Shown here in pieces: positions 9,001 to 63,200 of a DNA stretch of 64,000 nt. The stretch is from Owenia fusiformis. Its lineage: Eukaryota > Annelida > Polychaeta > Sabellida > Oweniidae. The first letter of the stretch is position 1, and every line of letters begins with the position of its first letter. The translations under genes and the position numbers were made by a program. The DNA lies in the NCBI GenBank assembly GCA_903813345.2, contig CAIIXF020000011.1:20195754-20259753 (forward strand). Reading direction: 5' to 3'. The notes under the pieces were generated by a model, which did not search any database, was not told the origin of the DNA, and saw nothing but the letters and a program-made list of their open reading frames with translations.

Positions 9001-12000
9001 GGTTCTTGGAGTTTTAGAAAAGCGCTTTTGTAAACCGCAATCGTGATTACACCTAAATCTTAAACCTGGTTAAAACCGAAGAAGCTTTTGTAAAACGCCA
9101 TGTGTAATTCTAGCAAATGACACAGCAAATGAAAAGATCTCATTATTGTTTCAGGTTCAAATAACAAAGAGAAGGCTGTGGAGCCAGTGGTACCTGGTCT
9201 ACTGGTGGCTGAGCCATACTCTTGGAAGAGTCTTGTCACGGGGCAACCAATTCTGCGTATACGTACCACTGCAACTAAAGCTGCTGTGCTGAGTCTGCCA
9301 GAGGGGTGAGAATGACTTACTTTTCACTTTACATATGACAACTAGTTCACAACAAGTAAAACGTTTTTATCCCACCAAATAAAAACTTTCCAAAGACTTA
9401 TAAAAAGATTCCATGGACATGTTATATGGAAGAGTTTGGTACATATAAACCAAAAATCAAGAGGAATTCCATTTGACAAGTAATTTTGTGGAAGCCCATG
9501 TGATAAGCCATTTGAAGTCACTGAAAGGAATCCCCCTCCCGGATCAAGGCCTTGTCATAACCATTGCATTTGGGATAATCCCAAATATATTTTGTTTTGC
9601 AGACGGCATGTGTTACGTTTTATGATCAATGCACCCTTAGGATACCATGTTCACCTCTGCTCATCTGTGCAGTTTGTCTACGGGGATGAAGAAACTGTCA
9701 TGCCACACCTCACCAAGGTATATAGTATATATTGTTGGGCATCTAGAAACTGTAAGATATGTATGAGAAGAAAGATGTAATGATCAGGATGGCAGCCAAA
9801 AAGTCATTTTCAATGTTTAACCTTAAATTTTGGTTGTGTATGTATGTATGTATGTATACTAACATGGACTTGAAAAAAGGCCAACAGACACCACAAACAG
9901 AACAGTGGGAAACAGTTCATTAGAAAAGTATAATTGTATGATAGAACCCTTGAAATGCAATTCATTGACCTGTTGTTCTATCTGGGGTTTCTATTTGTAT
10001 TTCAGGAGAGTTGCAGGTTCATAGACAATGCCACCCAGGTGATCCTGACCATGGGAAAATGTATACAGACATTCAATGACCCTGAGGCCAACTCTGTTGC
10101 CAGGGAGGAATTTGCTGCGGCTCATTGTCCCTACCGCAACGATAAAACCATGTCCAAAACTTACCACCACAAGGTACATTTTTCAATTTTATCATTTATT
10201 CTATAGTAACACCTGTATATTCAAACACCTTTCAGTGTGAACACTTTGTTTAGGTCCCAATTTAGTTATAAACCTTGAAATGTGAACCCCTAGCTACCAA
10301 TCTGAACACTTTTGGCTGGAATCAGACAGGTTTTACTGTATGTTATTGTAAAGCCATGTCCCATATTGATGGACATGTATATCATATTCAGTATCAACTG
10401 CTGAACTTATGTATCTTATATCCTGATCTCAAATGGATGAATTGGAGGCTTAAAAGCCTAGTCTCAATAAATGAACTTAAACCTTACATGTGTATAAGTA
10501 GAATCTAAAATGTCTAGAGCCTGTGTCCTTTATACTTATCTAATATAAAATATTTTCTTTGGTAAATTAATGTTACACAAACTTTTATTGTTTTTTCAGC
10601 TGTTTATGGACTCATTTTACGGAATGTTAAGGAAAGCATTAGCGGACAACCTCAGTTTGGAAATGTCCTTTGCTTGGCGTGCATTTTTCTTTGATATCAC
10701 TACAAAAAATATTCTTGGATTGCATCTTGGCAGTAGACCAGGTTAGTAGAGACCTTTCACAATTTCTAAAAGATGGGCTTTTTGGCTTTTATAAGTTACC
10801 AAAAGCCAGCTCCCAAAATGGGCATTTGATTTCAAGAAGCACTTATTCCAGTTGTTTAACATATATAAGAAATTTATTTCCATAGCAACAGCAAATGCCC
10901 ATTTTAGATTAATTCTCATATTCTAACACTTTTCTGAATGAGCTATTTAAGAATATATAGAATCCTAGATGGACCGGTTGTGGGTAGGAGTTTGTGATCA
11001 GTAGCAAGATATAGTAAGCTGGGCATATTATTGGATGCATGTCTTGTTGGTTGCATGGCATCATTTATAGCAATCATGCATGAAAACACATCACCATGGC
11101 AACTTATTTGAATAATCACCTTGACAACAGGAAGTATTATGATTTTGAATGATTTAAAGTGTCTAAAATGCAGATTGAGGGTTGTTCAATAAATTTTGAA
11201 TATAAGACTCAAAAAATATTTATTGGATGACTCAAGTACATCAGCCCCTGAATTCATAGTCCAATTGTAACAAACAAATTATAAGCAAATGTGAATTTTC
11301 TAATTTTTATCAACCAATAGAAGAATCCGTCAGTGCTTTCCTTCCACCAGGTAAGAAAGAAAGTAAGCTGTGGCTTGTTAGAAATGGATGTTTTTCGTAG
11401 ACAATGTGCATTTTCTTCACATGTTTTAGGGCTGAAGTCATTCGCTCAGATTGTTTTAACTCTTACATCTTTGAAAAAGAAAGCTCTAAAAAAAGGTAAA
11501 ACTTCGACTAGACATCTTGGCATCTTGAAACGCTTTTTTTTAACGAGCAGCTTCTGTTTGTTATTAATCAATACGACATGACGAGGAAATCTGGCTTTCC
11601 TATCTGTACAGAATCTAAGAATTTTTTTGAAGAAATTGTTAGATTTTTGTTTTAAGAATATTTCGCTATATCGTGTGTATACATGTATTAATCCACATTT
11701 AGTTGTTAGATTACAGTTATGTTTGTAGCTTATTTTATGATGCATTTGGTACAAGGATCCATCATGAATTACCGGTAGATCAGAATCCCATTTCTCTCTC
11801 CATTCTCTGTCTATCTAGTGTAGTTAGAGATTCGGTTGGCTGACATGGGTTCAGTAAAGTAAGACCCACTGGAAAACTCATATCATGTCATATTGAATGC
11901 CACTCCCATTGAACACTTCAGTGCTCTCCCGACCAAAAGTTTATTTGAGGGAGTCTGAATATTTCCAGTTCTTCATGATATTTTACATTCTCAACTGGGT

Positions 12001-15000
12001 CAAAGTGGAATTACAAATGGACATTATTGCCATTAAAGTGTTTGAACCATTGAGTTCCAGTGTGGCAAAATTGTTCATCTCTTTGTACTGTTGTATTGCT
12101 TCATAACCATTGGTCAATAAAGGACAGCCTTAGTGTCAACTTTGGCTCCGCCACTTGGGTTCGATTTTCATGTTGCATATTGAATGTTTTTATGTTAACA
12201 ATGGGTGACTTCCACATCTGGAAGGCTTTCATTCTGTAGAGGTTGGTATATGCTTAAGGGCTCGTGGTTTCATTGATCCACTGATTCAGTAGTGCTTTCT
12301 TGGGTATTATGGGGAGCGTTGCCATTAGTTACTGTCCTATCATCTTCACAAGAGGTTAACATAAGCCTACTGCATCATGGGATGGCCAGCCCTCCAGTAC
12401 ATGCAAAAAACAGCTTCATGGTTGAACTTGCACATTTTAAGTGAAAAACATTTAAATGAATATGGTAAAACACAGCATATTTCTTACACAAATGATATTT
12501 ATTTATCATAGAAGTTTGTTTTTAATTTTGTTGCCAAAAATTTATACGATCAAAGCTGAATGAACTATAGATTATACAAGCTGGGATGTGTGATTTTTAT
12601 ATAATTCATTTGGCATAAAGCTTTATATAATGTATATTTATGTTATATTTTAGTTATTTTATTCATGTTAATGTATCGTGTATGTCAGTCTTTCTGTTTG
12701 TCAGTATTTAATAAAAAGGATTCATTTTAGGCTGGGATGGATAAAGCTAAACATGTTAATTCCAGATTTTGGAGTTCACATAACTTTAATTAAAGCATTA
12801 AATGGTCATTATGGTACATCCTATATGTAAGCATGTAGTTAAGAATATCATTGCATTGCATGCTTTAAGCATGACATAATATTTAACAGAGTTTGAAACA
12901 ACATTGCAACATCAGCAACCATTGAAACACATTTTGATTATTTGATGAATTAAATTGAATTATGATATATTGAAATCAGTATTTGTATTTCTTATTGCAA
13001 ATAGTTTATTGTATACATTTCACAAATCAAAATGAATGGTCAGAAATCAAAAATCTTACCTGTTACATGGCAGGGTTAAATTGCTTCAATATGAAGCATT
13101 TTGACAAAAGGCTTTGTAAAGGTGTTGCACCTCAAAGATCCTTTGTTACAAAGGTGTTGCACCTTAAAGATCCTCTGTTACAAAGATGTTGCACCTCAAA
13201 GATCCTTTGTTACAATGGTGTTGCTCCTCAGAGATCCTTTGTTACTAAGGTGTTGCACCTCAAAGATCCTTTGTTACAAAGGTGTTGCACCTCAAAGCTT
13301 CTTTGTTACAAAGGTGTTGTACCTCAAAGATCTTTTGTTACAAAGGTGTTGCACCTCAAAGATCCTTTGTTACAAAGGTGTTGCACCTCAAAGATCCTTT
13401 GTTAAAAAGGTGTTGCACCTCAAAGATCCTTTGTTACAAAGGTGTTGCACCTCAAAGATTCTTTGTTACAAAGGTGTTGTACCTCAAAGATCTTTTGTTA
13501 CAAAGTTTATTTGTCAAAATACTTCATAATGAAGTAATTTATTCCTGTTAGGAGACAGTGATATAAAACAAGTCCAAAACAGAAATATGAGACTCACCTG
13601 TTGCAGATTGTTTTAAACTACTAACCTATCATAAGCCTGTTACTTAGTTGTTGTTTGTTTGTTTTTATTTTGCATCGAGTTATTTTATGATTTCTAGCAA
13701 CGGGAGCCACTAGCCACAGAGGTTCTGCTAAGCATACTAACAAGAATAAACGTAAGTTGTTTAAGTCATTGCCGATAAATATATATTGTCGACACTTAAT
13801 TCGTTCTTGATTATGCATGTCACAAATGATATTTCCAAGTCAAGAATATCATATTTACTAATATGTGTGTTGATGTATTTAAGATAAGAATCAGACATAA
13901 TTAACCTATTTTCAAAGTATGTAATTAAAATAAGCGAGAATTCACGAGTGGGTGTGTGCGTGTGCGTGTGCGTGTATTTATATCATTTTGTCATATTTGT
14001 CCTATGTTTCTTCCTCTGCCCATATTATGCACCCATTATATGCTTTATTTCACTGTTTATGTTATTGTTTTTCTCAAATGTTTTTTGTTTATTTTTTTTC
14101 AAAAGAATCTAAAGAAGCTAAAAGATTATCACTTAGCTACAGCTATAGTTCAGGTGACTTTAAATCTAGACGATTTTAAAATCTTAAGTTTTATTATCTT
14201 AATTTGTCTTATATAAGTAGAACACTTTCCTAAAATTTATTACATTTTCATCTTCTTTATCATCATTTCTATTCACAAATCTTGACTCTGACACCTTCAG
14301 TACAGGTTTGACACTTTTTGACCCCCCCCCCTCATGGGGTGCCACTTCTTGACAGTATCATGACTCTGTCAATTAGTTTTGTTTCAGTATTACCCTTTGT
14401 TGATAAATCTTTGATGAAGATCATTTAACTCAAGTCCCAAGATCGTGATATTGTACATTTGGGAAGATCCTTTCTAATCACCTTATAACCCCCCCCCCCC
14501 CTTCTCCTGGTCCATATAAATCTATAATATAGGTCATCTCATTGTAATTCTCTTTCTTGGTTGTGGGACCATCTTCTACATGTTTTACCTTTATATAGAG
14601 TTAATGTGTATGTTACACCTGTTAATCCTTAAGGTAGGCCCTATTGGATAAGAACTCCAAGTTAATATGTCAGATTACTCATTCTCCTCTGCCTTCCTTA
14701 ATTGTAGTGTATCCTCTATGTTGAGTTAAGACATCTATCAATTTCTTCTTTTTTGACAGACTTATAAGTTGAAACATGTTAAGTATGAGTGTAAAAATGT
14801 TTTATGTAAAACTATTTAATACTTTGAGTGTACTATCTCATTTTCTCATTGTCCATTCTTTCTTATGTGGAACCAGTTGGTATCTTCACAGATAACAGTT
14901 CTTTCAGGATTTTATAATTAAATGAGTTTAAGCATACTGAGGAGATTGTCTTCCTTTGAACTGTACTCTATTTAATTTTGATTATTCATGTATGCTTTAA

Positions 15001-18000: not shown

Positions 18001-21000
18001 TTATTCACATTTTGATTGTTTCACATTTTCTGTTACAGAAATATATTCAAAGCAGACCCTGATCTGATGCCAAAATATCCATTCTTCAAGGATGAGTGGA
18101 ATAAGATATCATATGCTGACTACTCTGGAATCTTTGCTGATCAGCCCAATAACAACTGGTTCCTTGTATTCAGGTCAGTTCAGTGGATTTACTTTATTAT
18201 TGAACTATACACCATTTATTCATATTTCATTCACATTTTCCATTGACTTCACATATTCTCATTGATTAACAATTTAATGTTTATTGGATTAGTGAGTGAC
18301 TGTACTACAATCTGATGAATGACTCTAATAGGATATGGTCATATTTGAATGTACATTCATTTATCAATTAAATTGTGTTTTTGTAGAGAGATCTTCCATG
18401 TGACTGAGGAGATGCTGGTCGTCCCTAAGCTCTATGTTCCCATTAACACCTGCATGCTGCGTGTTGTCAACAATGATACTGGCGAAGAAGTGCCACGTGT
18501 ATTTCAGAAAACTGCCCCCTACGTCTACAAGAAAAACAAGGTGGGCCCCCTCTTTTATGGTCATTGCTTATCTCAAGTATACATTTATCATATGTTATGT
18601 TTGCATTAACTGAATGAAAACATCCAGGATGATTAATCTCTAGTGCGTCCCAGAGTTATTTTATTTTTTTTCGATTTTATTTTAAACTAATTTTTTGAGA
18701 AAGGATCACATAGCAGTATGTGCACATATTTAACAGATGTTTTTCTGTTTAACAGAGGGGATACACTTTTGTGGCGGAGGCAAGGACCATTGATCACCCA
18801 CTGGCTTCTGGGAAATGGAAGATGCGTCTGATTGGTTCATTAAGTCCACTTCCTGCACCAATCAGAAATGAAGTGAGCTGTACTTTCCATAGTCGGGAAA
18901 TCAAAGATTATTATGTGCCCAATGAGAGGAATGTCATCTTTAGGTAAGATTATCCATCAGAGCCATCTATTGAGCAAAATGTGCAAAGTATTTAGTTTTG
19001 CCCGAGGCCTATGATTTCCTGACTGAGAAAATATATAGTAAGGGAAGGGGGCAGATACTTGGTGCTAGACTACAGAAAAATTGAATAAGCTACAACTTGT
19101 CATGTCAAAAATCCAGTGGGACCAGCTTAAATTATTAAAATTGGCATATACAGGTGCTCACAAGTTTTCTTTGTTAGGATATACAGGTTTTAGTATAAGT
19201 ACTGGCGTATAATATTATGTTAAGCATTACACGGTTTCATTGATATTATTTTAAGCAGTTTAAATTGAATGCATTATTCACAACATTTTATATCTTTCAG
19301 ATACACTGTTAAAGTGACTGAAGACCATCTAGCCAGTCTACAGATGAACACATCCAAATCTGATGTCTACATTAAAATACAGGTATGCACAGAAAATGCA
19401 CTATGAGTGAGTTCTTGAGAAGAGTGGCAGTCTTTATCAGCCTAAAGTAAATCACACATAGTGTAAAGTAAAAATCTAATCCAAACACCTCTGCGGCCAA
19501 AAGTGTCTGGATTGGCAGGTGTTCACATTTCAAAGTTTTATAAACATGTAAGTTAGTGGGAGATAACAAATTTGGGCCTGAGAAATTGTGTTCAGTGAAA
19601 CCTGTCTAATTCAAATACTATTAGGACCAGCCAAAAGTGTTCAGATTGGCCAGTGTTTATGTTTTTAGGTTTTGAAAAATTATGACTGAAAATAGCTTTC
19701 ACATTGAGAGCCATTCAGAATAGTACTAGAGAGATTCCAGATATTCAGGTTTTAGTGTTTTCAGCAAATTAATAATGTGTTTTAATTTAGATTTATTCAT
19801 AAAATTCATTCAATCCATGTTGGGAAATGACATACTATACAACCAGGGGAGCTCAAATATATTCTTTGTTTTTTAGATCTTGGACCATGAGGAGGAGATG
19901 CTTAGTGCAGTTGGCAAAGGACATACTGTGCTCCCAGCATTCCTCTTCCTCAAAGATTATAACCCAGATGACCTGTTGGACAAGCGCCCTAGCTCTAAAA
20001 TGTGTAAGTATTCCATAATATATATAGAATACCACAACACAGTCATAGTATACAAAGTCCTCATAAACAACATCTCAGTATAGGATGCCTCTGTTTACAA
20101 TGTCTTTATAGACCAACAAGTGATTCAATATGTACTTGATTTTCTAAATTGAAAATGGAAAAGCTTTGATTCTGCGAAACATCCAATATTATTAGTTAGT
20201 CACATTTGTTCAATAAAAATTGATCATCTTGTAGCAAATGCCGGGGGCAAGAACAGTAAGCTTGGCAGCAACAGGCACAGGCGGGGGTCAGGAAGCAGTA
20301 ACCATGGGGGACGTGCCTCTGTAAGTAACCCAGTCTTGACGTTTTAGTCCCTACATGTATATCACTCACTTTTTCAACTCAATTTTGGAAAAAATTAATT
20401 GTATGCTACACAGAATTTTTTTTTTTTTTTTTACCTTTTAACCATTTCCTTTTTGCAAGCATAGTGTAGATGTAAACTTGAGGTCACAGTGAAAATCTAT
20501 AAAGTAAATAGCCTCACATCCTTGATTTGAAGTCTGCAATTACAATAAATAACCTCACGATAAACTCATAATAGTTATCCTTGTTTTAAAGGCCTCACAT
20601 TGAATACCCTCAAAATATATCCCCTAGATACATAGACCCCCACACCCCCAACCCTGAATGATGTAACTCCTATAATGAGTGTAGTACCTGTAATGAATGT
20701 AACCCCTGTAACGATTGTAGTACCTGTAATGATTGTACCACCTGTAATGATTGTAGCACATGAGTAGAGAAGACCTGTCAATGTTAGACCATGCAGGTGA
20801 TGAGGAGGAAGATGAAGAAAGCAGGAAGGTAAATTATAATGCAACATTAATTTTGAAACTGTATGCTAATATAACATGGAAGTGAGTCTTGCTTCAGCGG
20901 GTTGTAAAGCAGATAAGGGGGTCCAGGGTCTTGAGGCAAGACTACATGAAAGTATACATCTTTGAATATGTGAATAAACTGGTAGAAAATAACATTATTT

Positions 21001-29727: not shown

Positions 29728-32700
29728 CTGGAAAAAATGTGCATTTTGATATTAATCTAAAGCATCTCAACTTGAAATAACAAGCCCCGAAATATATTCC
29801 TTGTATCAAAGATTCAGTCCACTTTAAAATACAATCAATAAAAAATAATTTTAAGATATTAAAAGATATTAAAAATCAGAGATAATTTTCAAATTATTCA
29901 CAACAGTGTTTTTTGTCTTGCATTGAGTATCACATTTGGACTAGAAGCTAGACTACTACCAAATAACAGATACAATTGTAATATTACCTGTTTGGTTGTG
30001 ATTTCTTTGATCGTGCATACCAGATTCACAGCACTCTGTCGTGATTGGCTAATATCCCAGAAATATTGTTCCATATCTACCTCAGATTTTTCTAGCTCCC
30101 ATGGTTCAATTTTCTACAAATAAAATAACACTGTGATAGACAGTAAATATACATACTATTGTACAGGTATACAATAATCTGTATTTTGAAATAGGCCTAT
30201 GGCAATTTTCATTATTCACTCATATCTCGCATAAATTAATTCTATTTATAATTTGCATATCAGACATACAAAGGATGTGTGACTTACCCATGATTCATAG
30301 TAGAGGGCTGTCAAGAGGTACATACAGTAGTCATAATTTTGTTGCTTCAATGGACATCTGAAATACAATATTTTATTTTATTATTTATTATCTAAAAACG
30401 ACATCTTTAAAATGCTAGAAGACTGAAATTATATAAATTATGGGTGTTTCATATTAGGTTAAGATCATAAAAACAATAGATTAAAAAAAATTATCTTTAT
30501 ATGAGTTCCATACATAGAACTGTCTATTAATGAACACAAATGGAACTGGCAAATGTTTTTGATTGATATGTGTTTTTAGATTTCTTAACAAAGCAGATAA
30601 GAAAAGAAAGGTGTTCATATTTAGAAGTGTTCAGATTAAGGAGTTTGGAGGTCTCCTGTACTGACCTATCTGATTCTATGGTGACCATCCCTGACTGTTT
30701 GTCATAGCGATCTCCAACAAGTCTAATGAACTTATCTCTGGCATGGTAATCAAGCTCCAATGATGATAATTTAAACTACAAATAAGCACAATATATGTAT
30801 ATATGTTCAATATTAGATCTTCACTCAATAAGTAGCTATCTGAATTGTGGTTTTGAACAAAAATATATTGTCTAAGGTTTTATCACACTTGGAGCTATCA
30901 AAAGACTAAAAACTGAATTGAGAATACTAAATGGATTCTGTTTAATAACTCTGCAGTTATTGTACTTTTTGGTCGTAAATATTTGAAAATATGTGCAAAG
31001 AATATGTGAGAGGAAAGCTAATTTAAATGTTAATAAACAAAACAATTGATACATGACTGCATCTTTCCCGACATAAGTATCTAGACCTATTTCTAAAATT
31101 ACCAAACAAATATAATATATATGGGACAATAGAATGAGTACCTTAATCTTGGCCACTCTGGCTCTGAAATCTCTTTCTGAGGGCCCTGATTTACAATAAT
31201 CTGATGTTGTCACGGTGATAGGAAAATGTTTGTCACAGCTTTCATCTGTTTCCAAACCTTCTGGCCACTCTGTACAAAACTCTGCAAAGTTAAACAAGCC
31301 ATTAACATGCAAAATGTCACAACCTGTCATTTGTTACAGATGCTTACCGCCAAACACCAACTGCAAACCACAAAAAAGTTTGAGACCATTACAAAATGAA
31401 TTATCATAGGAATGATTTCTTATAAATGATTGATTTCTTATGTATAGCTAGCATGGTTTACTGAAATCTACCACAGAATAAGGTATTGCTCACCTTAATT
31501 GGTGGTAAATAAAATTCAATACAATACAGTACAATTAAGGTTCTTATTCATCAAAAATACGAACGCGAATGATAAAAGAGAGGTTAGGATACATTATTAA
31601 TTCATAAGGCCGTAACAAAAATTTTAGTACTTTACTTTTTATAGCAGCACAGTGTTTCTTTACATGAGCAGGTGAGAGATGCAGGAAGTTTGGAATCTTC
31701 ATCAGTTCAGCATTCCCATACTTTCCTGGGACAACACCCTCATTTTCATCTGTTTTCTGGAATGTTTAACAAAGATCTAATAAAGACAGGGCATTAAGAT
31801 GCAAAACATCAACACCTGCCAACCACGGAAAAATGAATGCCAACCGCCGAACACCGTCCACAACAAAGTCAGAGACTATAACAATATAGCACCACTTGTG
31901 GTAGTGACATAATAGGGCAGTGTTTTCAATAAGGCAATAACCAGGGAGGTTAAGCTACACATTTTAGGATACCTTAAGTCTGTGTAAAATTATAATTCTC
32001 TAGTGATTAGTTCACCTCTTTGTAGTATGTACTTGATAGATTGAGTAACAAAAGGTGGGATTTCGTCTCTGGACAAAAAACAATTAAGATGGGGGGGTAG
32101 TAATCTCGGGGGTCATACAAATACACGTTCATGTACAAGGTTTCTCAATTTTTTCAGCTTAACGTCCCTAATCAAGTTTCTTCATTCATTTAAGACCACA
32201 TCCTCTGATCGCAGCACTCCGAGATCCAGGATTTCTTCCTTTTCTTTCCATACATTCATAATCCATTCATTACTTTCAATATAATAGGAGGAGGAACAGA
32301 TTCTGGACACCTGCTTCAGGAGGATGTTAGGATAAGCAACATTACTTTTTCTAAATGAACTTCATATAAATATTATTGTTAATTGTTAAAATATTCAATG
32401 AAATAATCAAAGTGAATATGTAGCCTAATTTTCACAAGGACATACCTCCACAAAGCCTTGTCTTACGGGGAATGGGACAACAGATTGCTTAAATGTGGAG
32501 TTTGTGGGCCAAGCCTTTGTCCAGTCTTGATCCACTTGCATTCGTAGAGACCTATCTGGAGGAACCTGCAATAAAGATAATAAATTAATGAGGTCTTCAA
32601 AAATGGTAAAACTACTTTTCATAGCAGTATAGTGTCTCTTTACATGGGTAGGCATGAGATAAAGGAAGTTAAACCTATCTAAGAAAGTAAAAGTCTTTCT

Positions 32701-34971: not shown

Positions 34972-35983
34972 ACATGCTATCTATTGCAAGACTTACGCCT
35001 GCCACAACCGTCACCATGTTAATCAGTGTTTTTTAAGTAGCGCAAGGATCCTGCCATGACCGTGGTAGTGTTATCGTGTAAGCCTGGTATAACCGTGACA
35101 GGCTGGTATAACCGTGACAATGCTGTATTCTATTACAAGGCCTGTCATGACCCTGGAAGTGTTATCGTGGAAGCCAGGCGCGACCGTAGCCTTTATTGTG
35201 GTTTATAAGCGAATGTGAATATTAATGTATAGTAGTAATTTTGATTTTGACATGATTAAGGTAGTTTTAGTATTAACTGTTTAATTGTAATGAGGATCAC
35301 TTAAAATTGTTAAGGATATTCCTGGCATTAATGTCATACATATTTACTAGTCATTGCAATACATTATAATGGTCATAGTAGAACTAAGCCTAAATCTCTA
35401 CATTACCACCCTCATACCTGGCCTTGCAATACTATATTACATTGTCACGGTCATACCAGGCTTTGCAATCCCATAATACATTGTCATGGTCATGCCAGGT
35501 TTTCAAATACACATTGTCACGGTCAATTATAGCAATCATAAATTTCTACATTACCACTCTCATACCCGAACTTGGTATCACATTGCCATGGCGGTCATAC
35601 CAAGCCTTGCAATACTATATTACATTGCCATGGTCATGCCAGGCTTTGCAATACACATTGTCACGGTTATAGCAGTCCTAATCGTAAATTTCTACATTAC
35701 CACTCTCATACCTGAACTTGCAATACTATATTACATTGTCACGGTCATGCCAGGCCTTGCAGTACTATATTACATTGTTACGGTCATACCAAGCCTTGCA
35801 GAACTATATTAGATTGTCACGGTCATGGCAGGCATTGCAATATAATACAGCATTGTCGCGGTTATACCAGGCTTTCACGATAACATTACCACGGTCATGG
35901 CAGGATCCTTGCGCTACTTAAAAAACACTGAATAACATAATGACGGTTACGCCAGGCGTTAGTCTTGCAACAGATAGGGTCTC
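34972..35983. mobile_element. Foldback-type element with long inverted repeats and 9-bp target duplication
   Basis: The arms pair over about 200 bases: the left CTATCTATTGCAAGACTTAC matches the reverse complement of the right CTATCTGTTGCAAGACTAAC. Deeper in, AAGTAGCGCAAGGATCCTGC is identical in both arms. The interior is a 39-bp tandem array. A perfect 9-base direct repeat, AGAAAATAC, flanks it (34963-34971 and 35984-35992). It has no transposase, so it is non-autonomous. The 9-bp duplication and arm structure resemble foldback or Mutator-like elements. Confidence 0.85.
35400..35880. repeat. 39-bp subrepeat array inside the foldback element
   Basis: The unit is near ACATTGTCACGGTCATGCCA followed by GGCCTTGCAATACTATATT, with longer variants carrying TTTCTACATTACCACTCTCA. 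The repetitive open frames across it (35424-35921) are products of the period, not genes. Confidence 0.85.
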
Positions 35984-36022: not shown

Positions 36023-36265
36023 ATGGCGGACGGGGAGAAGCAGAAAAGTGCCTTATTTCGAAGGCACGAACAGATACTTAGATGGAAAGATTCGGATACA
36101 GTAAATGAACCATTGAAAATAAGGAAACCCAAAGTTAAATTCCAAGATGGCTGTGTGTTTCTAGCGGCTTGTTCAAGTGGCGATACGGACGAAGTAAAAG
36201 CCCTCTTGTCAAGAGGAGCGGATATAAATACAGCAAATGTGGACGGTTTGACAGCACTGCATCAG
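36023..36265 (+). CDS. PPP1R12A: PPP1R12 exon 1: MyPhoNE, KVKF motif, first ankyrin repeat
   Basis: 81 codons from an ATG in a fair Kozak context (GTAATGGCGG). It begins MADGEKQKSALFRRHEQILR. KVKF at residues 37-40 is the PP1-binding site. The donor GTTTGA is weak and follows LTALHQ, the same point as in vertebrate genes. Confidence 0.95.
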
Positions 36266-45200: not shown

Positions 45201-48200
45201 GTATTTCTCATTCTTGGATTATAAAATAAAACAATTATAAAACTCATGTTTTTATAGATAAATGGTGATGATATGATTTGATTTAAACAGTAACATTATA
45301 TTTAACAAGATGGTATACTTAGGTCAGCATAACAACACTGACCCTACTTCACCATGGTTCATTATCCATCTTGAAAATGTCAATTATCTGTTGTAGTTTT
45401 GCTTTTATTTAAGTTTGGATTCACATGTTTTTATGCTAATTAGACCTAATCAGGTGCATTGTATATCTATTGTGCTTTGACAAAATAAATTCAGGACAAT
45501 CCTTTGTTATCTATCCTTAAAAATTACAGATTAAATGTAGTTATATATGAAATTGAAGAGTTTATATCTATTTCTATTATTGAAAATTAGATTTAATTCA
45601 GTAGACTTATAAAAGATTGTTGAGTCAAATCTGTAAGTTTTACTATTGAACTGTATATCATAGGGAGAGTTGAAGGGGTATTTTTAATTTCTAGCGGATT
45701 TTTGTTCATATGGGTACAAAAGCTCATATCCTGGAGGTTCAACCGAGCTGGGAAAGGAGGGAGGGGGTCAAGTGAGTTTACTATGTGTATTCAATAAATA
45801 AGATGAAAAGTGAAACACATATTATAAACACCTGGAATAAACACATGTATTATTTAGTCCCATTTAGTCATATCAATGTCGTATTGACCCCCTTGTGATT
45901 ATTAAGATAACCACTTCAAAATGTGAATACCATACTATCAACCAGCCCCATTAGTGTTCACTTTGGATAGGTGTTACTTGATTAATTCTCTTTATTTCAA
46001 GCAACTGTTCAGTGGGTGTCGTAGGTATTTCCTGTTTGCAAAGTTGAAATAAGATATTTTCCTTTACTTGTAACAGATTAATAGATTTATCTAATGATAC
46101 ACTAGACATATGAGAGAAATGGCGGCATTTTTTTAAACATATTTTTTATAGTTTCTGTTAAAGAATTAAATTTTTGTCATTCGCCTAGTTTTTTTAGTCA
46201 TGATTCTGAAATGCATTGTCAGACTTTCTTATTTTTACTTCTTTTTTCAAAAATCTTCCTGACTCAGAAGAAATTCAAGGTTTTCTATTTTGTGTATACA
46301 GTATAAGGAAGTGAGTGCAAAATTATCATTTGTAGTAAGACAACCAAGTAACAAGTGATGATAGAATTCTTTTTGCCAATTTATTCTCTAATTTTTAACA
46401 AGTTGAATTATTGTGGAATCTTGATATAAAACATGTATAAATTAATTTTGGATGTTTCTTATGTTAGTTAAGAGGTTAAAATCTCATTAGGTTTTGTCCA
46501 GGGGCTTCTTGATCTGGCCAACATATGATGCTTTCTCTCTGTCAGAGGTATCATCAGGCTCCTTTTCTGTGGAAGTTTCTAATGTATTGTTGGTTTGGTC
46601 TCATTATGTAGGGCTAATGGCATTCAGGTATGTTGTGGCAAATAGAGCCGGTTCTGGCATCAGTCAGAGGAGGTACAAGCTGACTCCCAGAACTATTTTG
46701 CTAATGATTAAAGGAGGTATCTAAAAGTTCCCAGAATTCTGTGGTCAGACAAATGATTTGACCAGATTGTCATTGAAGTGTAGCATTGCAAAGGGGCTGA
46801 CCTAAGAAAGTCAAACATTTATTTTGATGTATCCGCTTTTTGAAATTAGGCTTAGCCTAAAAAGTTTAGATTCCTGTATGCCTTAGATTATTCAATACTT
46901 CAATATGTTAAAAGCCTTTTTACCAGGAATTTTTTTCCCAACTGGCTGCAGTGTTATTTGTAGACTTTAAAATCCATTTTGATACCCATCTCATGTCTTC
47001 CTGTTTTAGGACAAGCATATTTGAAAGAAAACTCAGATAGAATGCCATCATTTTGCACAATAGAGACATATTCCAAGTTAGCATTGTCCAAACCAAGATC
47101 ATGAGATACCTTTTTTAAATTTTCTGAATTCTTAACTGATTTCTAGGGGTATATGGTACATTTCAAATTCTCAACAGTATATATCATACTTGGTTGGAAG
47201 GTCAACGTTGTGAGAATATGATATTCGAACATTGTCTAAGATGAGCTATACTATTTTTGGAGTTTGACTTCTTGTTTAATGATAATTTTCTTCTGTTTCC
47301 AGGCATGTATAGATGATAATATAGCTATTGTGGAATTTCTGGTTGAGAATGGTGCAGACATCAATGTATGTGACAATGAAGGTTGGACTCCTCTCCATGC
47401 AACAGCCTCATGTGGCTTCCTGGACATTGCTGAGTAAGTACTACATTGCTTCTTTTCCTTCCCTGAGTGTTCAAGCCTATTACATCAGGTGTTGATGAAG
47501 CTGTCTTTTAAGGAAGCAAAGTCAAGCTATTGGAGAGGGCATTATTTTCTAGTAGTCATATTTCAAGTTACTTCTGATCCCCTCTCCCTATACCTACACC
47601 CAGCACCTCCCCATATTGCTAAAGGTTGAAGACTACTTGTTTGGGGCAACATGAGGCTACAGTGAAACTTACATATCCAAAAACCTCTTTTATCCGAACA
47701 CCTCTCAATGTGAACACTTTTTTTTGGTCCCAGTTTTTTATTTCTCATTGACTCATATGTGTGTAATACCTTGAAATCTGAACACTTGCTGATCTTAACA
47801 TTTTTGGCTGGTCCCAAAGATGTTTGGATTAGACAGGTTTTACTGTATGTAGTTAAACATACTCTGGACTGGGAGTTAATGCAACCTTTTCATCTGAAGA
47901 TTGGAAATGTAATTTTGTAGTAAGGAAAAAATCGTGTTCTGTGCGATAAAATTATAATTACATTAATGCTGAAGTGAACATTTTGAGCATAAAATAATTA
48001 TCAATTGATAAATTGCAGGGTTAACATTGTGAATATCAACCCCTCATAGTATTGAAACTATTGTTATCACCTTCATGAATTTAAAATGGTGAAACTATGA
48101 TCGCTTGTATATAGATATCTAATCGAATCGTAGATAAAAATTATATCAATCATAAATCATGAGACATCGTCCACTCCAAAATAATAAAATGAGCACATGC

Positions 48201-51200
48201 ATATAAAAATCTTTTCCTGGAGCAAAGTATGAACGTTTGGATTTTCAGAGATATAATAATTGATCATTTGAGGCAAAAACATTGTACAATTGAAGGGTTG
48301 CTCTCTTGATCTGATTCTGCCTCCTAATACCATGTATAATCCTTTTATCAGCTTTATATAATTTCACTTAAAATTCCCAATATTATGTCACATTTAAATA
48401 TTAAAATGAAAATGTAAAATGTTTTTGTAACAGTAAATAATTCATCAGAACAAAGTTTATTTTGTTTTGGGCCTTAAGAGTAAGTTATAATGACAAGGTT
48501 TAAAGGATAACAGTTCTTTTTCATTTTTCATCAAGTCAAGAACGAAACCTCAATTTCTAAATATTTATTTGTGGTTATACAGGTGATATAACACTAACCT
48601 TTCAAAGGTGTTACACCTCTTAAGACTCCATTGAGAAACAAGACACATTTGTCATATTTGGTCTTATTTGTTTATAATGGTAAAATCAGTTTTTAATGAA
48701 TAATGAAATGTGACCATGAAAAAGACACATTTCACCTGTGGAGTGTGCGTAGGAGGTCCCCTTTCAATGTTTACAATATAGGTCTATATCCTTGCATGGA
48801 ATTTAGAGAAATCCTCAGCACAAAGAGCATGGAATTTAGTGAAATAGAATCTAATGCTGTAACTTTGTCGATAAATGATAACCATGACAACAATAAAATC
48901 GAATTCAAAAATTACTATAACATTTTATTTATTTATATTTATTAATGGGATGATCTTTCTTATCTGCATAGCCATAGTGAAAACAGACATCCTGACTGAC
49001 ACCTAATATTTGAAAGCAAAAGTCAAACATTATCAAACGCACAACCTTTATGAAGATTTTTTATTCATTGTAAATTTATTGAAATGCTATAGAAAAGGTC
49101 ACTGTCACAAGCTCAATCTTACGACAGCTCAGAGTATTTGAATTTTGAAAGAAATTATTAATAATGTATTTTTCATAACTTTAGTTCATAAGTCTATCAT
49201 CTTTTAATTGTTGATTAGACATACTACTCAGTTGACAAGTGTTCACCTCAAGGGGAGAATTGAGTATGATAAAACCTGTCTTAAGTAGATTTGATTGGGG
49301 ATCAGTGAAAAAGCTTCATATGTAGTCATTAGAGCGATGTCATTAGAATCATAGTCATTAGAACCAAGAGTTGGTTGAGCATTCGCGGTACAAATAAAAC
49401 ATGTTCGCATTTCAAGCTGCTCATTTTATGCAGGATAAATGATATTGTATACTATATAATTTAAATGATAATATCATGAAATATTATGTTTTGTGGACTT
49501 ATGTTCCTTTTCAAAGGTTTGTTGTAGTAACGTCTTTTTGACGAATGAATTTCTTGAATCTTAAATCGTGATATTTCAAAAGAAATTGATTAGACATTGT
49601 GTCTTTACTTTTTTGAAATTTGTACACAAAGTATATATTTTAGATTCTTCTCTACATTTTGTGTATAAAGCTCATTTTGGTATAAAGCTCCTTTTTGTAT
49701 TAAGCACCATTGGGTATATAGTTCTATTGGGTATGAAATTCCATTGGGTATAAAGCTCTTTTGGGTATGAAATTCCATTGGGTATAAAGCTCCATTAGGT
49801 ATAAAGTTCCTTTGGGTATAAATTTCCTTTGGGTAATGCTTTATAGGTACTAGGTATGAAGTTCCATTGGATGTAAAGCTCCTTTGGATAAAACTTTAAC
49901 CGTAAGAAGTTCCATTAGGTATAAATTTCCATTGGATGTATCCAGGCTAGTGATTGTACCAATACAGAACTCACTTTAATATCACACATTCTTATTGCAG
50001 GTATTTAATCAAAGGTGGCTGTGACTTAGCTAATGTGAACAGTGATGGAGACCTTGCACTGGACATTGCTGATACTCAGGCCATGGAGGAATGCCTGGAG
50101 AGAGAAATGGAAAAACAAGGTATTTTGTCTTGTGGTTATTTTGTGAAGATAAAAATGTAGCGTCAAGTTGACAAGAACGAAACAACGATGTAATTTGCTT
50201 AAATCATTGGGCAGACCTATCATTGTACACAGGAACAGTAATTTTGTAAAAAATTAATGAATCCTGCCAAAAATTCACCAATGAAAATCTTATTATGCAG
50301 GTATTGATGCGGAATCTGCACGTAACTGGGAAGAGAACCGTATGTTACAAGATGCTAACTCTTGGCTTAACAGTGAAGAGATTATTCCACACAGAGAACC
50401 AAAGTCAGAGGCTACTCCCCTACATGTGGCCTCAGCCAAGGGCTACCTCAAAGTCATGGAGTAAGTACTAGTTTTATAATGGAGAGTTCTGTTGTTTAAG
50501 GTGGTCCCTGTTTGAGTATTTTAATACAATATTAAATGCTACTCCCCTACATGTGGCCTCAGCCAAGGGCTACCTCAAAGTCATGGAGTAAGTACTAGTT
50601 TTATAATTGAGAGTTCTGTTGTTTAAGGTGGTCCCTGTTTGAGTATTTTAATACAATATTAAATGCTACTCCCCTACATGTGGCCTCAGCCAAGGGCTAC
50701 CTCAAAGTCATGGAGTAAGTACTAGTTTTATAATGGAGAGTTCTGTTGTTTAAGGTGGTTCCTGTTTGAGTATTTTAATACAATATTACATGCTACTCCC
50801 CTACATGTGGCCTCAGCCAAGGGCTACCTCAAAGTCATGGAGTAAGTACTAGTTTTATAATGGAGAGTTCTGTTGTTTAAGGTGGTTCCTGTTTGAGTAT
50901 TTTAATACAATATTATATGCTACTCCCCTACATGTGGCCTCAGCCAAGGGCTACCTCAAAGTCATGGAGTAAGTACTAGTTTTTTTTATAATGGAGAGTT
51001 CTGTTGTTTAAGGTGGTCCCTGTTTGAGTATTTTAATACAATATTATATGCTACTTTCCTACATGTGGCCTCAGCCAAGGGCTACCTCAAAGTCATGGAG
51101 TAAGTACTAGTTTTATAATGGAGAGTTCTGTTGTTTAAGGTGGTCCCTGTTTGAGTATTTTAATACAATATTATATGCTACTTTCCTACATGAGGCCTCA

Positions 51201-54200
51201 GCCAAGGGCTACCTCAAAGTCATGGAGTAAGTACTAGTTTATAATGGAGAGTTCTGTTGTTTAAGGTGGTCCCTGTTTGAGTATTTTAATACAATATTAT
51301 ATGCTACTTTCCTACATGAGGCCTCAGCCAAGGGCTACCTCAAAGTCATGGAGTAAGTACTAGTTTTATAATGGAGAGTTCTGTTGTTTAAGGTGGTCCC
51401 TGTTTGAGTATTTTAATACAATATTAAATGCTACTCCCCTACATGTGGCCTCAGCCAAGAGCTACCTCAAAGTCATGGAGTAAGTACTAGTTTTATAATG
51501 GAGAGTTCTGTTGTTTAAGGTGGTCCCTGTTTGAGTATTTTAATACAATATTATATGCTACTCCCCTACATGTGGCCTCAGCCAAGGGCTACCTCAAAGT
51601 CATGGAGTAAGTACTAGTTTTATAATGAAGAGTTCTGTTGTTTAAGGTGGTCCCTGTTTGAGTATTTTAATACAATATTAAATGCTACTCCCCTACATGT
51701 GGCCTCAGCCAAGGGCTACCTCAAAGTCATGGAGTAAGTACTAGTTTTATAATGAAGAGTTCTGTTGTTTAAGGTGGTCCCTGTTTGATTAATTTTGAAT
51801 CTATTAAAGAGCTCAATGCCATGGAGTAAGTACTAGTTTTATAATGGAGAGTTCTGTTGTTTAAGGTGGTCCCTTTTTGAGTATTTTTGAATCTATTAAC
51901 ATGAAATGAAATGCCATGAAATAATTCCTGGTTTTTATAGAGAAAGGTTCTATGGCTAAAGTTGGTCTCAATGTGACAATTTTTCGAACTATGTAAGTAG
52001 ATAGACCTCAAAGTCCTGGTTTTCATAGTGAAGGATTCTGTTGCTTAACGATGTTCAGAGCCATCTATTTAAAAGTTATATAACACATTCTGATGATATA
52101 CCAACGCTCACTTGTTGTTTTGTTAGTTGGCAATGTAGAAATGTTGCCGTGGTTATTTTGAGACATCAATCACAAACATTTCAAAATATTCTGAAATCAG
52201 GTTGATTAATATAGCGATGGTAAAGTGAAGAAGTGGAAAAATGCCAATGCTCATCTTCCATTAAGACTGTTATTTTCAAGGTTTATTTTCAAGGAGAATC
52301 TGAATTTCAATGTGAATGTCGAAAGATTGCATTAATCAGCTAGTTGAACCTATTCTATTATTCAATTTAGAATGGATATGTTATACAGCATTGAAAGGTT
52401 TGTTCTGTAAAAGTGTTCAACTTATCAGTTTTCTGGCTGCAGCGGACCTGAAAAGAGGGGGGGGGGGGGCAAAAACTGGTATGCTTGCAGCTAAAAAAAT
52501 ATTGAGCCCCAAATCTGAACATTTTGGACTAATTTTTTATCAATAAGCCAAAAATTGAAAAATGCCATTGAGCCCCAAATCTGAACATTTTGGATTAATT
52601 TTTTCTCAATAAACCAAAAATTAAAAAATGCCTAGTAATGCCCAGTTTGTTACCAAAATTGCCCAGATTATGTGTGGGGAAATGCGTGATTTTGTGGATT
52701 TCCAATTCTTGATAGCCCCATTCATCTTAAATGGGGGGGGGGGGGGGGTACTCACAATGGGGATGGTTTGGGGTGATTACTTTTGATTTGTGAGACTGTA
52801 AGCTGTCAGGTGATTGATAGAGCCTGTCTGCTCATTTAAATCCCCAATCATTTCATAGTAAATGTTCTCAGCAAATCATTCAAATGTTTTTTATTTTGTT
52901 GTTTTGAAGTTAGTGCCCTGTAAAGTATTTATACAATGAAGTTAACGACTTGGCCAGATGCAACAAGACTTAAAATGTCAATCTTTTTGAACTGTTCCAG
53001 TTATAACTAAAATTAAGTTGTATGAACCCTCAAATTCTGGTATTTTGAGTTTCACCTATAGGCTGACTAATTAAGTCTATATCAATCTCACTGTTTTCTT
53101 TCTACTTTGCATTTTAAAATTTTAAATATCAATTGAGAGTTTGTTTGAACTATATCCAAAACCACTACAATTCTAGTTGTAATTATTTTCTGCCAAAATT
53201 CCTTTAAAATAGTATCCTGTGGATTCATAACAAGCCATACTGGTTGTGTTCGATAATCTATTGAAAAATGCCTGGAATTGGCTATTTCCGCAGGCTTGCT
53301 GAAGCACAATGACCGATAATCACGAATACTTCAAGGATTCCCAGGTTTCCAGGTACTATGGCAACACTCGTTTATTCCCTCTGTTGTATAACAATATGTC
53401 TCATCTTCAAAAAACAACTTGTATTTTAGTGCTAATGCTCGAGTCAAACGGTGCAGATATTTTGGATCAAGAAGTAGCTGCTTTGGTAGCATGGGTTTTA
53501 AATAGAATAACCACATTTCTGATAGTGCTCATGATACTACTAATTTTAATTGATGCACTTTTTATCAACTATGCTTCCTCATTTGAAGGGATTTGAGCAT
53601 TCATGTATGTTTTGGAGGAATATTTAGCTGATTCATTTATACCTGGTTTTGTCGGCTCATTGTTCAGTTGCTTTGTGATATAGGAAAACTTGGTTGCTCT
53701 ACTCTTAACTGAAATATGTACGAATATGAATTGACTACCGTATAATCAAAATCTTTTTATACGAATTAATTTTCTTTTGTATATCTTGACTGTAGTCTAC
53801 CTAACCGAAATACTATCAGAGTTAAGTTTATTGGACAGGACTGGGAGAATGGGCAAAAATAGTACTATAATATGAGATTTGAATAATCAACTCTCTTGTG
53901 GTTTGAACTTGGCCAATTTTAATATGCCAAGCAACAGGCCTCCTATGCTGAAGTGAGGGTCAAAAGCAAAACAAGAATCATCTTGTATACTTCACTGGGT
54001 CAGCTTGTAGTGGAAAACTTGTTTGAACATCAATCAACAGCTTTTTAAGAGCTACCTGTAAATGCATGTTCACCATAATCGCAATTTCAAGCATGAAATA
54101 AAGAATTAATGGCATATTGTGATGTTATTAGAATTGGCATTCAGATATGCCAAAAATTGATGTAGTTTGTTCTAAGCAAAGTGAAATATTAAAGAAAAAA

Positions 54201-57200: not shown

Positions 57201-60200
57201 TATGCTGAGCTCAGATAATCAGGTCCCATTTATCTAAGCCGAAGCAAATGGGTTTTAATAAAAAGACTATCTGAATCAAAAGTCACCTTTATAGACAAAA
57301 TGTAGAATTTGGAGAAATGCTGTAATATTAAAACTGTTTATTCTTAACCATTATTTTTGAAGATTCTTCAAAAGGATTGAAGATGTTTCTAGATCTTTCC
57401 TATCTGCGGAAGTAATTTTTCTGGATGTTATTGAAGTGTTTTGAGAAAGTAGATAATTATTACCACTAATGGATGTTATCTGTCCAGTCATATTTTCTGA
57501 CCATCACCATGGTGAAGGAAATACCTTCTGGGAAAAAGGAAGCCATTTTTCACAGTAGTTTGGTAACCTCTAAGATCTAAGTGCAATTTTTTATAATATT
57601 TCATCTGATAGATGTTACTCATGAAGTACACTCAGTCTTTTGCTATCTCTTTTTGGCTACTTCCTCGAGAGTTATGATGATCTAGCTTCATATGACCATG
57701 TAACATATAAACAGTTCTTATGATGATTTCTACTGCAAAAGTACTTCCTCGTATCTCTTATTTTTGATTTCCCAGATGTTTGATTTTTCCTTAATATCAA
57801 TTTGTATGCTGGTATGAGATCTTTGATGAAATGATATAAAATGTCTTATTTTTATGAGACTTTCAGGATCATGCCCCTATCCTTGACTCCCCTCCCCTTA
57901 TTTTGTTACCCCACCATCTGGGCCATCCCCTTTGACTTAATTCCTCCCCTTATCTCCTTACCCCCTCTCCCACTCTTGCAGCCTTGCCTACCCCAAGAAT
58001 GTTATGATATAACAAATATGAAGGCCATCCACAATAATTCACTGGGCTAGCTGTCATCAAAGGAAGATTACTGTAGATTTATGTTCAATTGTACTTGTAT
58101 TTTGATATCTATGCCCTTTAAAGATTCTACTCTTATTATTAACCGGTAGATCAGTATACAATCATATTCTTTGTACTTAATGTATTTTTAGGGGCTCCAT
58201 ACCAGGAAAGGTGAAGGTCACTCTTCATAATTGTCAGGATTTGGGATATATGAGATTCATTAAATAAATTCTTCAGTGGGGTTTATACTCCAAGAGTATC
58301 AGGCAGTTTAGCAGTGCTTTTATCCCATTCCTGTTGATCAGTTTCCCATAGAAGGCCAGTGTTCTCCCATAGTTTTTCTCAATTGGTTGTAAAATTAAGA
58401 ATGTCAAAAACTTCAGAATATCCTCATTTATATGGTTTATTGAATTCTCAATTCTTTGCAAATACAGTACATGAATAGATCTTCAAATGAACAGATTTTA
58501 CATATTATTTGAATTTCCCAGTAATTTGCGTCATGAATTCGCAATATTGGCTATAGATACTATAGTAACTAGACTGTCATTCAGTTAATGTTGCGATATA
58601 TCAGTGACGTGACATGTTAAATAAATTAAAAGATGTTATTCAGGACCACGTCAGATTATTTCAAGCATTTTAAATAATACCAAAACCTGTCAAGGATGAT
58701 ACCAAATGTGTCTTTGTAAAGGAAATTGACTTTTAAGTTATAAGAATCCTCAATGAAAAATTGAGAAAGGAATAAAAGAGTTGAACATAATGATTTTAAT
58801 ATTGTAAGTAATTTATTTGTGTTTCACACACTGAAATATTACACAGAATAACACATTCATAATAAAAAGCAGTGTCTGGCCGATGCCGACCTATGAAAGA
58901 CAACATACATTTCTGGTTTATAACTTATTGGTATATTTTTTCAGTGTGCTATTAAAGCTAGGAGTAGATGTAGATGCGAAGGATGCTGATGGATGGACGC
59001 CACTACATGCGGCTGTACACTGGGGACAAGAAGAAGCTTGTAAAGTACTTGTGGAACACATGGCTGATATGGAGGCCAAAAATAATGCAGTGAGTGCCAA
59101 TATAAATACAGTAAAACCAGTTTAATCTGAACATCACTCATACTGGTCAAAAGTGTTCGGATCAGCATATTTTTAACATGGTCTATAATTCAATGGCAGA
59201 TTAAAAATGTGACCGAAAAAATGTTCACATTGAGGCGTGTTCAGACTAGAGAGTTGTTCCATACACAGGTTTTACTGTGGTAAATCTAGCTATCATATCA
59301 GAAAAATTATAAGTACTAATGCAAATGAAAAAAAATCCTAATTTTTATTGAAGATTGAATATCCAGACCTCTTATATAACAGGAATGAGAAAAAGATAAA
59401 GAAAATAATGATGATACAGCGCATGGTAGATCATCAGCAGACCACATAACTATGCTAGCTTCACATTGCATTTCATTTGCAAAATATCTTCATTGGTACC
59501 AAAAATAGAATCTAGTCAAATTTTCAAATATAAAATCACATATGCAAGATGCACCAACCGATTCAAAAGTCAAAAATCCCTTGGATTTTCATATATGGCA
59601 ATTTTTCTTGTCAAGAATGGCATTCTGGGTTTTTCATCTTCTTGGATAACAGAATATAGACTTTATTATTACAATGATATTACATGTATATCAAATGTTT
59701 TAAGAAAGACTGTATTTCATCATGGATAACATGAATAAAATGATCCACTTATATTATTACAATGATATTATATAAAATGTTTTAAGAATGACTGTATTTC
59801 ATCATGGATAACATGAATAAAATGATCCACTTATATTATTACAATGATATTATATCAAATGTTTTAAGAATGACTGTATTTCATCATGGATAACATGAAT
59901 AAAATGATCCACTTATATTATTACAATGATATTATATCAAATGTTTTAAGAATGACTGTATTTCATCATGGATAACATGAATAAAATGATCCACTTATAT
60001 TATTACAATGATATTATATCAAATGTTTTAAGAATGACTGTATTTCATCATGGATAACATGAATAAAATGATCCACTTATATTATTACAATGATATTATA
60101 TCAAATGTTTTAAGAATGACTGTATTTCATCATAGATAACATGAATAAAATGATCCACTTATATTATTACAATGATATTATATCAAATGTTATAAGAATG

Positions 60201-63200
60201 ACTGTATTTCATCACAGATAACATGAATAAAATGATCCACTTATATTATTACAATGATATTATATCAAATGTTTTAAGAATGACTGTATTTCATCACAGA
60301 TAACATGAATAAAATGATCCACTTATATTATTACAATGATATTATATCAAATGTTTTAAGAATGACTGTATTTCATCACGGATAACATGAATAAAATGAT
60401 CCACTTATATTATTACAATGATATTATATCAAATGTTTTAAGAATGACTGTATTTCATCACGGATAACATGAATAAAATGATCCTCTTATATTATTACAA
60501 TGATATTACATCAAATGTTTTAAGAATGACTGTATTTCATCACGGATAACATGAATAAAATGATCCACTTATATTATTACAATGATATTACATCAAATGT
60601 TTAAGAATGACTGTATTTCATCACAGATTACATGAATAAAATGATCCTCTTATATTATTACAATGATATTACATCAAATGTTTTAAGAATGACTGTATTT
60701 CATCACGGATAACATGAATAAAATGATCCACTTATATTATTACAATGATATTATATCAAATGTTTTAAGAATAACTGTATTTCATCACGGATAACATGAA
60801 TAAAATGATCCACTTATATTATTACAATGATATTATATCAAATGTTTTAAGAATAACTGTATTTCATCATAGATAACATGAATAAAATGATCCACTTATA
60901 TTATTACAATGATATTATATCAAATGTTTTAAGAATGACTGTATTTCATCATGGATAACATGAATAAAACGATCCACCTGTGTTATAGGGACTATCTGTT
61001 TTCGATGAAGCTGACACTGATATGCTTAAACTGCTTATAGAACTCAAGAAAAAACAAACAACAGTAAGTTGAAATAACAACAGATAATAAAAGTCAATGT
61101 TTGTATCATAAAGCCCTCTAGAGTTGTAGAAAGTTAAGTTTATTTAGTATGAGTATTTTATACTGTTCCTTGATGATGATTTTGTGATAGTCAATCTGTT
61201 TTTCTCCAACAAAATTGTAATTTATGGCAAAAAGATAGACTTTTAGCTCTTCTTGCCAATATCCTAAAATTCCTTCATTTTTTGGTCCATGTCTCAATTT
61301 TCTGTTATTACAAACTTGGCGATTATTTTTCAGCTAAAAGATAAAAAAGATGTGATTCAAACAAAAGTCCCTCCGCCATTAAAAAGAAGGTAAGGAAGTG
61401 TTCAATTATGTTTATTACAAAATTTACAAAAGTTACATGTGTTTGTAAGATTACTTTAAAGATCTGACTCTGGTTGATATATACAGTACATTGATTTTTA
61501 TACTCCTTGCTTGATAATTTAATACCATGTCATTTCTATCTGTTTAACCAACTGACTGATTATTGTATTCTGTTGCATCATCCTTTACTATTTTGGACAG
61601 TATACTAAGTTACAGGACATATACATTCAGTTACAGGACAAATGTATACTAAGTTTTAGTTGCATATGTTATTATTGGATATAATTTTTAATTTTTGGTG
61701 AATATTTTTTCATGGAATTTTCTGTTATTTCAGAACTTCAATCACTCGTATGAGTGTAGACCAAAAACAGAATGTTGTAATAAAAAATTTAGAAGAGGAA
61801 CGCGAGCAGCTAGAACGTGGACTCTTCAAAAAAGAGGATAGAAAAACGATGAGCTCAAGTTCTAGCAGCGAAGAATCAAGCTCCGATTCAGAAACTGGTA
61901 AATTAACTCATTCTAATATTTTAATATCTTTCGTTCACTTTATCATGTTTTTCAAAGGTCTCTAAGTTTAGTGAAAATTACTCGTTTATTGGAGTCACAC
62001 CCATATACCGGTAATAATAAGTTTGAATAAAACATTGGAAATGGAATTAAGATTCTTAGGGAAATCTTCAGCATTTACATGTACATTGTTTTTTATGGAA
62101 GTATTTTTTTAATGAATAGGAGGCAAAATCGTCATGATAAGTTAAAATGTGTCATTTATGTACCTTTGTTTTGCTTTTTATTTCAGAAAAACAAAACGCA
62201 ATAAATAAGAAAACAACTCTTACAAGCAACAACCATGTAAGTAAAGCAACCTTAGAAAAACAACATTGGGATAAATACTGTGTTATATTCAAGATCATGT
62301 AATCTAATGTGAAAATGTTCATGGAATCTGTTTTGAATATCAAGACATACCAATGTTGCATGCTTTAACTGTTTCAATACATTTGGTGTTGGTGAACATG
62401 CTTGAATCCTCAAAATCCTTTGTAAGATATATCATGTACATATATGTATTCAGTATCATGAATGGGGGCATGAAGGCTTCACTATTCCTTGTACCTGTCT
62501 CTCGGGGATGTTGCATCCAATAAGTGAAAACAAAATTTATGAATTGAATTATTGAAATGTCAAGTTATTGAATTATCCTAGATCATCAAATTGCGTGTTT
62601 GGAAACAGTTTTTAAATTAGCTTTTTTCAACCTATTTTCATTAACAGACCAACTTTGCAAGCAGCTAGAAATCAGATCTCTCAAAAGCAAATTAGTTCAA
62701 TACAACGCACCCATCTTGTAGCCATTTATATTCTATCCATTCTGCACATGCACACTGTAGAAAATATTTAGCTTTAAAAAAGGCCTCTTTGCTCTTTTTC
62801 AGCAAGTTTTTATTTCACTTTTCCAAACAATGACTTTTAGCTTGATGTCATTATCCATGGCAATGCAACTTCCCCTTTAGGGACTTCACTTTGTAATTAA
62901 GGGGCTTTGGCCTGCTTTTTCAAGGCTTTGGACACCAACTCGAGTACAACCTTTCAAAAAGCTACAACCGAAACGCCAAAAATTGAAGAATCATCAGAGA
63001 TCAGCAAGCCCTCTTCACCCAAAATTACTGATCTTGCGACCACGAAGAAAGAAGAGATTGTTAAAAAGAAGGATGATATTTTAGAACTTAAGAAGGAAAC
63101 TGATAAGGATGAAACTGAAGAGATTACCAAGGATAAGGAGCAAGAGGTTTGTGGCCCTCCCCCTGACAACAAGGCGAATGTGTTGCATGAGGGTCATGAT

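Follow-up and report, generated by a model that had tools for sequence, protein, structure and literature searches.

The kind of repeat described here is already known in two human genes, ABCA7 and CBS. In ABCA7, the VNTR of intron 18 starts with the exon 18 donor and ranges from ~12 to ~427 units. Retention of one unit is reported in 2 +/- 1% of transcripts (the second of two figures given with "respectively") and is independent of VNTR length, longer arrays go with more skipping of exon 19 and lower expression, and cycloheximide substantially increased the transcripts with a premature stop (PMC5954066). The CBS VNTR, placed at exon 13-intron 13 (PMC1395315), is a 31-bp repeat, c.1444_1467+7(16_21), that by its notation joins 24 exon bases to 7 intron bases in 16-21 copies; the copy number varies between people, and the notation implies that each copy would carry a donor (PMC2630376). 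The same report describes a 68-bp junction duplication in CBS where the more distal of two sites was strongly favoured, and terms these sites donors, although the position of the junction makes it an acceptor (PMC2630376). Duplication across a splice boundary can also give rise to an intron, as in a potato RdRp gene, where an intron was gained by tandem duplication and the missing partner site came from a cryptic site (PMC4974935).

The window analysed here, a 64-kb stretch of the Owenia fusiformis genome taken as a whole, includes a gene model for PPP1R12 (MYPT) whose nine coding exons, from 36023 to 62236, join in frame to give 381 residues free of stops. The translation matches 1s70_B (MYPT1) with E = 1.4e-110 over residues 9-296, the part encoded by exons 1-6; we take this chain to be chicken MYPT1. 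Five Pfam Ank families score above their cut-off in the product, and KVKF, the N-terminal PP1-binding motif of MYPT, is present in the translation. With such a motif and ankyrin repeats that match MYPT1, the predicted protein clearly belongs to PPP1R12/MYPT. Its exons are as follows, the first six placed by in-frame joins and the MYPT1 match.

36023 to 36265, + strand: exon 1, coding part, from the ATG
47303 to 47433, + strand: exon 2
50001 to 50119, + strand: exon 3
50301 to 50460, + strand: exon 4, whose last 50 bases (50411-50460) open repeat copy 1
58945 to 59089, + strand: exon 5, acceptor at 58944/58945
60989 to 61063, + strand: exon 6
61334 to 62236, + strand: putative exons 7-9 (61334-61389, 61734-61897 and 62187-62236), from splice sites and an open frame, beyond the MYPT1-matched part of the product

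Exon 4 is 160 nt long, ends in phase 2, and is separated from exon 5 by an intron of 8484 bases. Since the reading frame carries on from it into exon 5 at 58945, the donor at 50461 (donor 1) is its real donor; the in-frame join and the MYPT1 match of the gene bear out the exon 4 assignment made in an earlier note on this DNA. The donors of exon 2 (47434) and exon 4 (50461) have GA/GTAAGTACT in common (a slash marks the splice boundary here and below), in equal phase and at an equal place in the ankyrin repeat, which may be the trace of an old repeat duplication, or chance.

Donor 1 is the first of a long series. Tandem Repeats Finder reports an array at 50411-51796 with a period of 127, 10.9 copies, 97% matches and a score of 2580, and alignment extends the repeat into a decayed tail.

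50411 to 51796, + strand: eleven tandem 127-bp copies with GTAAGTACTAG in each (Tandem Repeats Finder and copy alignment)
50461 to 50471, + strand: donor 1, GTAAGTACTAG, the genuine exon 4 donor, as shown by the in-frame join to exon 5
51812 to 51887, + strand: partial copy within a unit of the 92-bp type; it is 96% identical along 76 bases and carries donor 12 at 51826
51910 to 51983, + strand: decayed copy, 68% identical, donor lost (alignment)
52011 to 52048, + strand: decayed partial copy, 79% identical, without GT at the aligned donor place (alignment)

The 127-bp unit consists of 50 bases from the end of exon 4 and 77 from the start of intron 4, and thus spans the boundary between them. 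Eight of the eleven copies are 127 bases long; copy 5 has 131, copy 7 has 126, and the cut-off copy 11 has 113. On the + strand of the window GTAAGTACTAG occurs exactly 12 times, all at the array: at 50461, in copies 2-11, and at 51826. A further GTAAGT that is not part of GTAAGTACTAG lies at 51993 in the decayed tail. The repeat of the exon 4 end with its donor thus stands as the earlier note had described it, as does the picture of one real donor followed by 11 identical ones downstream. Two details of that description needed amendment. The spacing of 127 bases is right, but GTAAGTACTAG is no separate element beside the 77 intron bases, which already include it; and there are indeed a dozen donors, but the last sits in the shorter 92-bp unit and the decayed copies reach to about 52048. 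With the real donor in copy 1 and 11 exact repeats of it, the array has the make-up of a boundary-spanning donor VNTR of the CBS and ABCA7 type, and its locally homogeneous tandem units, of a size between ten and some hundred bases, place it among the minisatellites.

Like the PPP1R12 array, the ABCA7 VNTR is a tandem repeat of a real donor, with whose GT it begins, and the donor of its next unit is out of frame. The ABCA7 unit differs in being 25 bp long and, as described, GC-rich, starting at the donor GT and holding no coding bases; for ABCA7 there are measured effects on the skipping of exon 19 and on expression, whereas the array in PPP1R12 is known here from its sequence (PMC5954066). 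In CBS the unit spans an exon/intron boundary, as it does here, but is shorter, and the gene is human (PMC2630376). Potato RdRp shares a duplication across a splice boundary, which lies on the acceptor side, happened once, and produced a new intron proven by RNA reads (PMC4974935); in PPP1R12 the duplication is on the donor side, there are eleven copies, and introns of 40 nt or 167 nt are candidates.

Other arrays and genes are found in the window. Intron 5 of PPP1R12 holds a second large array (59687-60977, 82 bp x 15.8, 97%) that ends ~12 bases from exon 6; its last unit merges into the TTATAG acceptor, and the preceding unit has TTATTA. Two introns of this gene therefore have splice-site arrays, intron 4 at the donor and intron 5 at the acceptor. 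An array with a 39/144-bp unit (35371-35875) ends ~150 bases upstream of the PPP1R12 start codon, and a 32-bp array of 12 copies at 13118-13505 leaves long open stretches in all three of the + frames. The gene upstream of PPP1R12 is probably androglobin, as open frames at 9484-9780 and 18349-18609 (+) match androglobin domains II and IV (Pfam, E = 9.6e-12 and 2e-24). Between this androglobin-like gene and PPP1R12, on the opposite strand, 30527-30775 (-) has a weak match to MRP-S28, a mitochondrial ribosomal protein, at E = 0.00023, just below the curated cut-off. Rfam gave no match at gathering scores across the whole window.

The copies themselves point to local growth. Among the 11 copies, each of the 55 possible pairs is separated by one or more substitutions, and copy 1 is one substitution away from copies 2, 5 and 10. 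Adjacent copies differ on average at 2.0 positions, against 3.1 for all pairs, a closeness matched by 10 of 5000 random orders, and this likeness of neighbours argues for local duplication. The stretches with the two old copies align at scores of 25 and 22, each reached by none of 500 shuffles, and the best score among 21 other stretches of intron 4 is 18. From divergence within this one sequence we infer that the boundary repeat is of some age and was recently renewed beside exon 4. With every copy distinct and neighbours on average closer to each other than other pairs, the array looks like a locally growing minisatellite rather than a stutter of the assembly.

The donors are well matched but not exceptional. 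Each of the 12 has the context GGA/GTAAGT, with A at -1. By the splice matrix from which all donor and acceptor scores here derive, donor 1 ranks fourth among the nine PPP1R12 donors, and 86 of 3467 other + strand GTs in the window score as high. To call it strong, as had been done, is fair as far as it goes; to read this as extreme is not, given that rank and the A at -1. The donor hexamer is unchanged in all 66 cells across the eleven copies. About one change would be expected in copies this young, so that zero is unsurprising. Outside the hexamer, 21 of 1316 cells carry substitutions, including two where copy 11 ends raggedly; the indels in the array are an insertion of four bases in copy 5 and the loss of one base from copy 7. 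Selection that keeps the decoy donors need not be invoked: the copies are young, and two old ones have lost their donors.

Any of the 11 later donors, if used without internal splicing, would bring in a stop after codon 218, since the reading frame runs through donor 1 as ATG GAG TAA. Extended exons, one of the outcomes raised by the earlier note, would therefore meet a stop immediately after exon 4, which that note had overlooked. Its arithmetic for a 25-nt micro-exon with the acceptor CCTCAG was sound: the frame stays open in threes, with 3, 6 or 9 of ten inclusions (120, 210 and 10 combinations, all open), and none was open for the other inclusion numbers among the 1 to 10 checked. Recursive splicing, which had also been suggested, finds no zero-length site at the donors; in none of the 12 donor contexts does an AG stand directly before the GT, and the sole AG there (GGAG) overlaps it. 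Nor does RNA structure appear to hide the decoys, as the unit folds like its shuffles (z = -0.32, with a fold as good or better in 70 of 200 shuffles). The unpaired probability of the 9-base donor was 0.040 for donor 1 and 0.062 for donor 2, compared with a median of 0.040 for 30 random 9-mers of intron 4, 0.005-0.066 for the other PPP1R12 donors, and 0.011 when 30 shuffled flanks were placed around the donor 9-mer; a longer folding span gave values from 0.006 to 0.067 across the 12 donors.

We consider it likely that the array is a recently expanded, nearly neutral VNTR across the exon 4/intron 4 boundary, with donor 1 mainly used and a little leakage to the others. Tandem slippage or unequal exchange would have copied the exon end, its donor and 77 intron bases into the intron, a process proposed to account for the copies seen. 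By analogy with ABCA7, donor 1, closing the normal 160-nt exon, would serve most transcripts, and a minor share would use a later donor, run into the TAA directly after the exon, and end as unproductive RNA. The copies would be free of selection and decay with age. The dominance of donor 1 in mature RNA is expected because of the precedents of the ABCA7 and CBS VNTRs, and all splicing outcomes given here are predictions. Several points temper this reading. The 2% of ABCA7 is a steady-state figure, and since cycloheximide raised the premature-stop transcripts, the second donor is in truth used more often there. The ABCA7 array also shows that such a repeat need not be harmless, in that longer arrays have more exon skipping and lower expression. 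Eperon and colleagues reportedly found in vitro that the intron-proximal of two strong donors is preferred when both are U1-bound; this work on paired donors and the 68-bp duplication of CBS both speak against dominance of donor 1.

A quite different reading starts from an acceptor within the unit. The earlier note, which did name a cryptic acceptor for the micro-exon, missed TTTAAG/GTGG. Nine AGs lying between donor 1 and donor 2 were tested, and this one alone, at 50501, gives a wholly open frame, with a piece of 87 nt and phase 2-2; it is a candidate acceptor for in-frame cassettes.

50501 to 51733, + strand: ten potential 87-nt in-frame cassettes, each from TTTAAG/GTGG to the next donor, the first at 50501-50587 and the last at 51647-51733 (from the sequence)

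The units could then be serial in-frame exon cassettes, any number of which is allowed, each adding 29 residues to the ankyrin region (EWSLFEYFNTILxATPLHVASAKGYLKVM or a close variant); we hold this to be very improbable. Ten of 11 candidate pieces are open and 87 nt long, the eleventh, of 52 nt, being broken, and the whole frame is kept in 1024 of 2048 combinations, as many as lack the broken piece. By the splice matrix the acceptor scores 1.6, which ranks at the 92.8th percentile among the AGs of the window and lies between the extremes of the eight PPP1R12 acceptors (-0.7 to 8.7). Neither of the two internal indels of the array touches the 87 nt. Translated conceptually with four cassettes and part of exon 5, the product matches Pfam Ank at E = 8.6e-22, a match to which exon 5 contributes. 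An open exon of 3n length with so good an acceptor arose in 2.1% of 5000 shuffles of the intron part and is thus somewhat rarer than chance, which counts against the nearly neutral reading; but some open 3n exon appeared in 49.7% of 5000 shuffles, and the candidate was picked after looking at the data. The ankyrin part is altered in four of ten cassettes (P to F, V to E or G to S), with the TPLH motif changed in copies 6-8. Across copies 2-11 the exon-derived part has four variable sites in three codons, all three residue-changing, and no silent change is seen, although 38 of 144 possible single changes there would be silent; small as these numbers are, the variation fits drift and shows no purifying selection. 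The intron within a unit would be only 40 nt, which is very short for an animal, and one of 167 nt requires the use of alternate units. Given the changed ankyrin motif in four of ten cassettes and the 40-nt nearest intron, we think that the cassettes are a by-product of the expansion. Equally improbable, in our estimate, is the broader proposal that the minisatellite is an exon-cassette generator, each full unit supplying both kinds of splice site along with 87 open bases in equal phase; the cassettes would be a donor-side counterpart of the cryptic-site recruitment in potato RdRp.

The donors might instead form a cluster of U1 binding sites that opens the 8.5-kb intron, in keeping with the roles of U1 elsewhere in protection from premature polyadenylation or as an aid to exon definition, here of exon 4. 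Twelve exact donors inside 1.4 kb would suit such a role, and intron 4 contains, by raw count, 19 AATAAA/ATTAAA motifs, of which the array and its tail hold five; yet the two older copies have no donor and donor conservation is not in excess, which makes a U1 cluster highly doubtful. We give as little credence to a copy number created by the assembly: near-identical tandem copies are a usual site of assembly error, but here no two copies are identical, private changes are present, and the array passes gradually into old, decayed copies. It is least likely of all that the array poisons splicing, with intron-proximal donors winning, so that most of the MYPT made is truncated or an unproductive isoform arises under regulation. 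In favour of this, all the donors are identical and a preference for the intron-proximal site is known in vitro; PPP1R12, on the other hand, is conserved, and its frame is intact in the MYPT1-matched exons 1-6. The human precedents divide on this point, distal preference being reported for the 68-bp duplication of CBS (PMC2630376) but retention of a unit in only ~2% of steady-state transcripts for ABCA7 (PMC5954066).

Were the cassettes real, changes in array length would insert 29-residue half-ankyrin pieces into MYPT with the frame intact, a coding rheostat that originates in a boundary-spanning duplication. As a nearly neutral VNTR, which we favour, the PPP1R12 array adds to the two human genes a further boundary-spanning VNTR, one with 50 coding bases per unit. 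It is also a natural experiment in donor choice, offering a dozen identical donors in near-identical contexts, mostly at 127-base steps. The immediate stop reports any misuse of a later donor, and junction reads would gauge how far exon definition protects the first.
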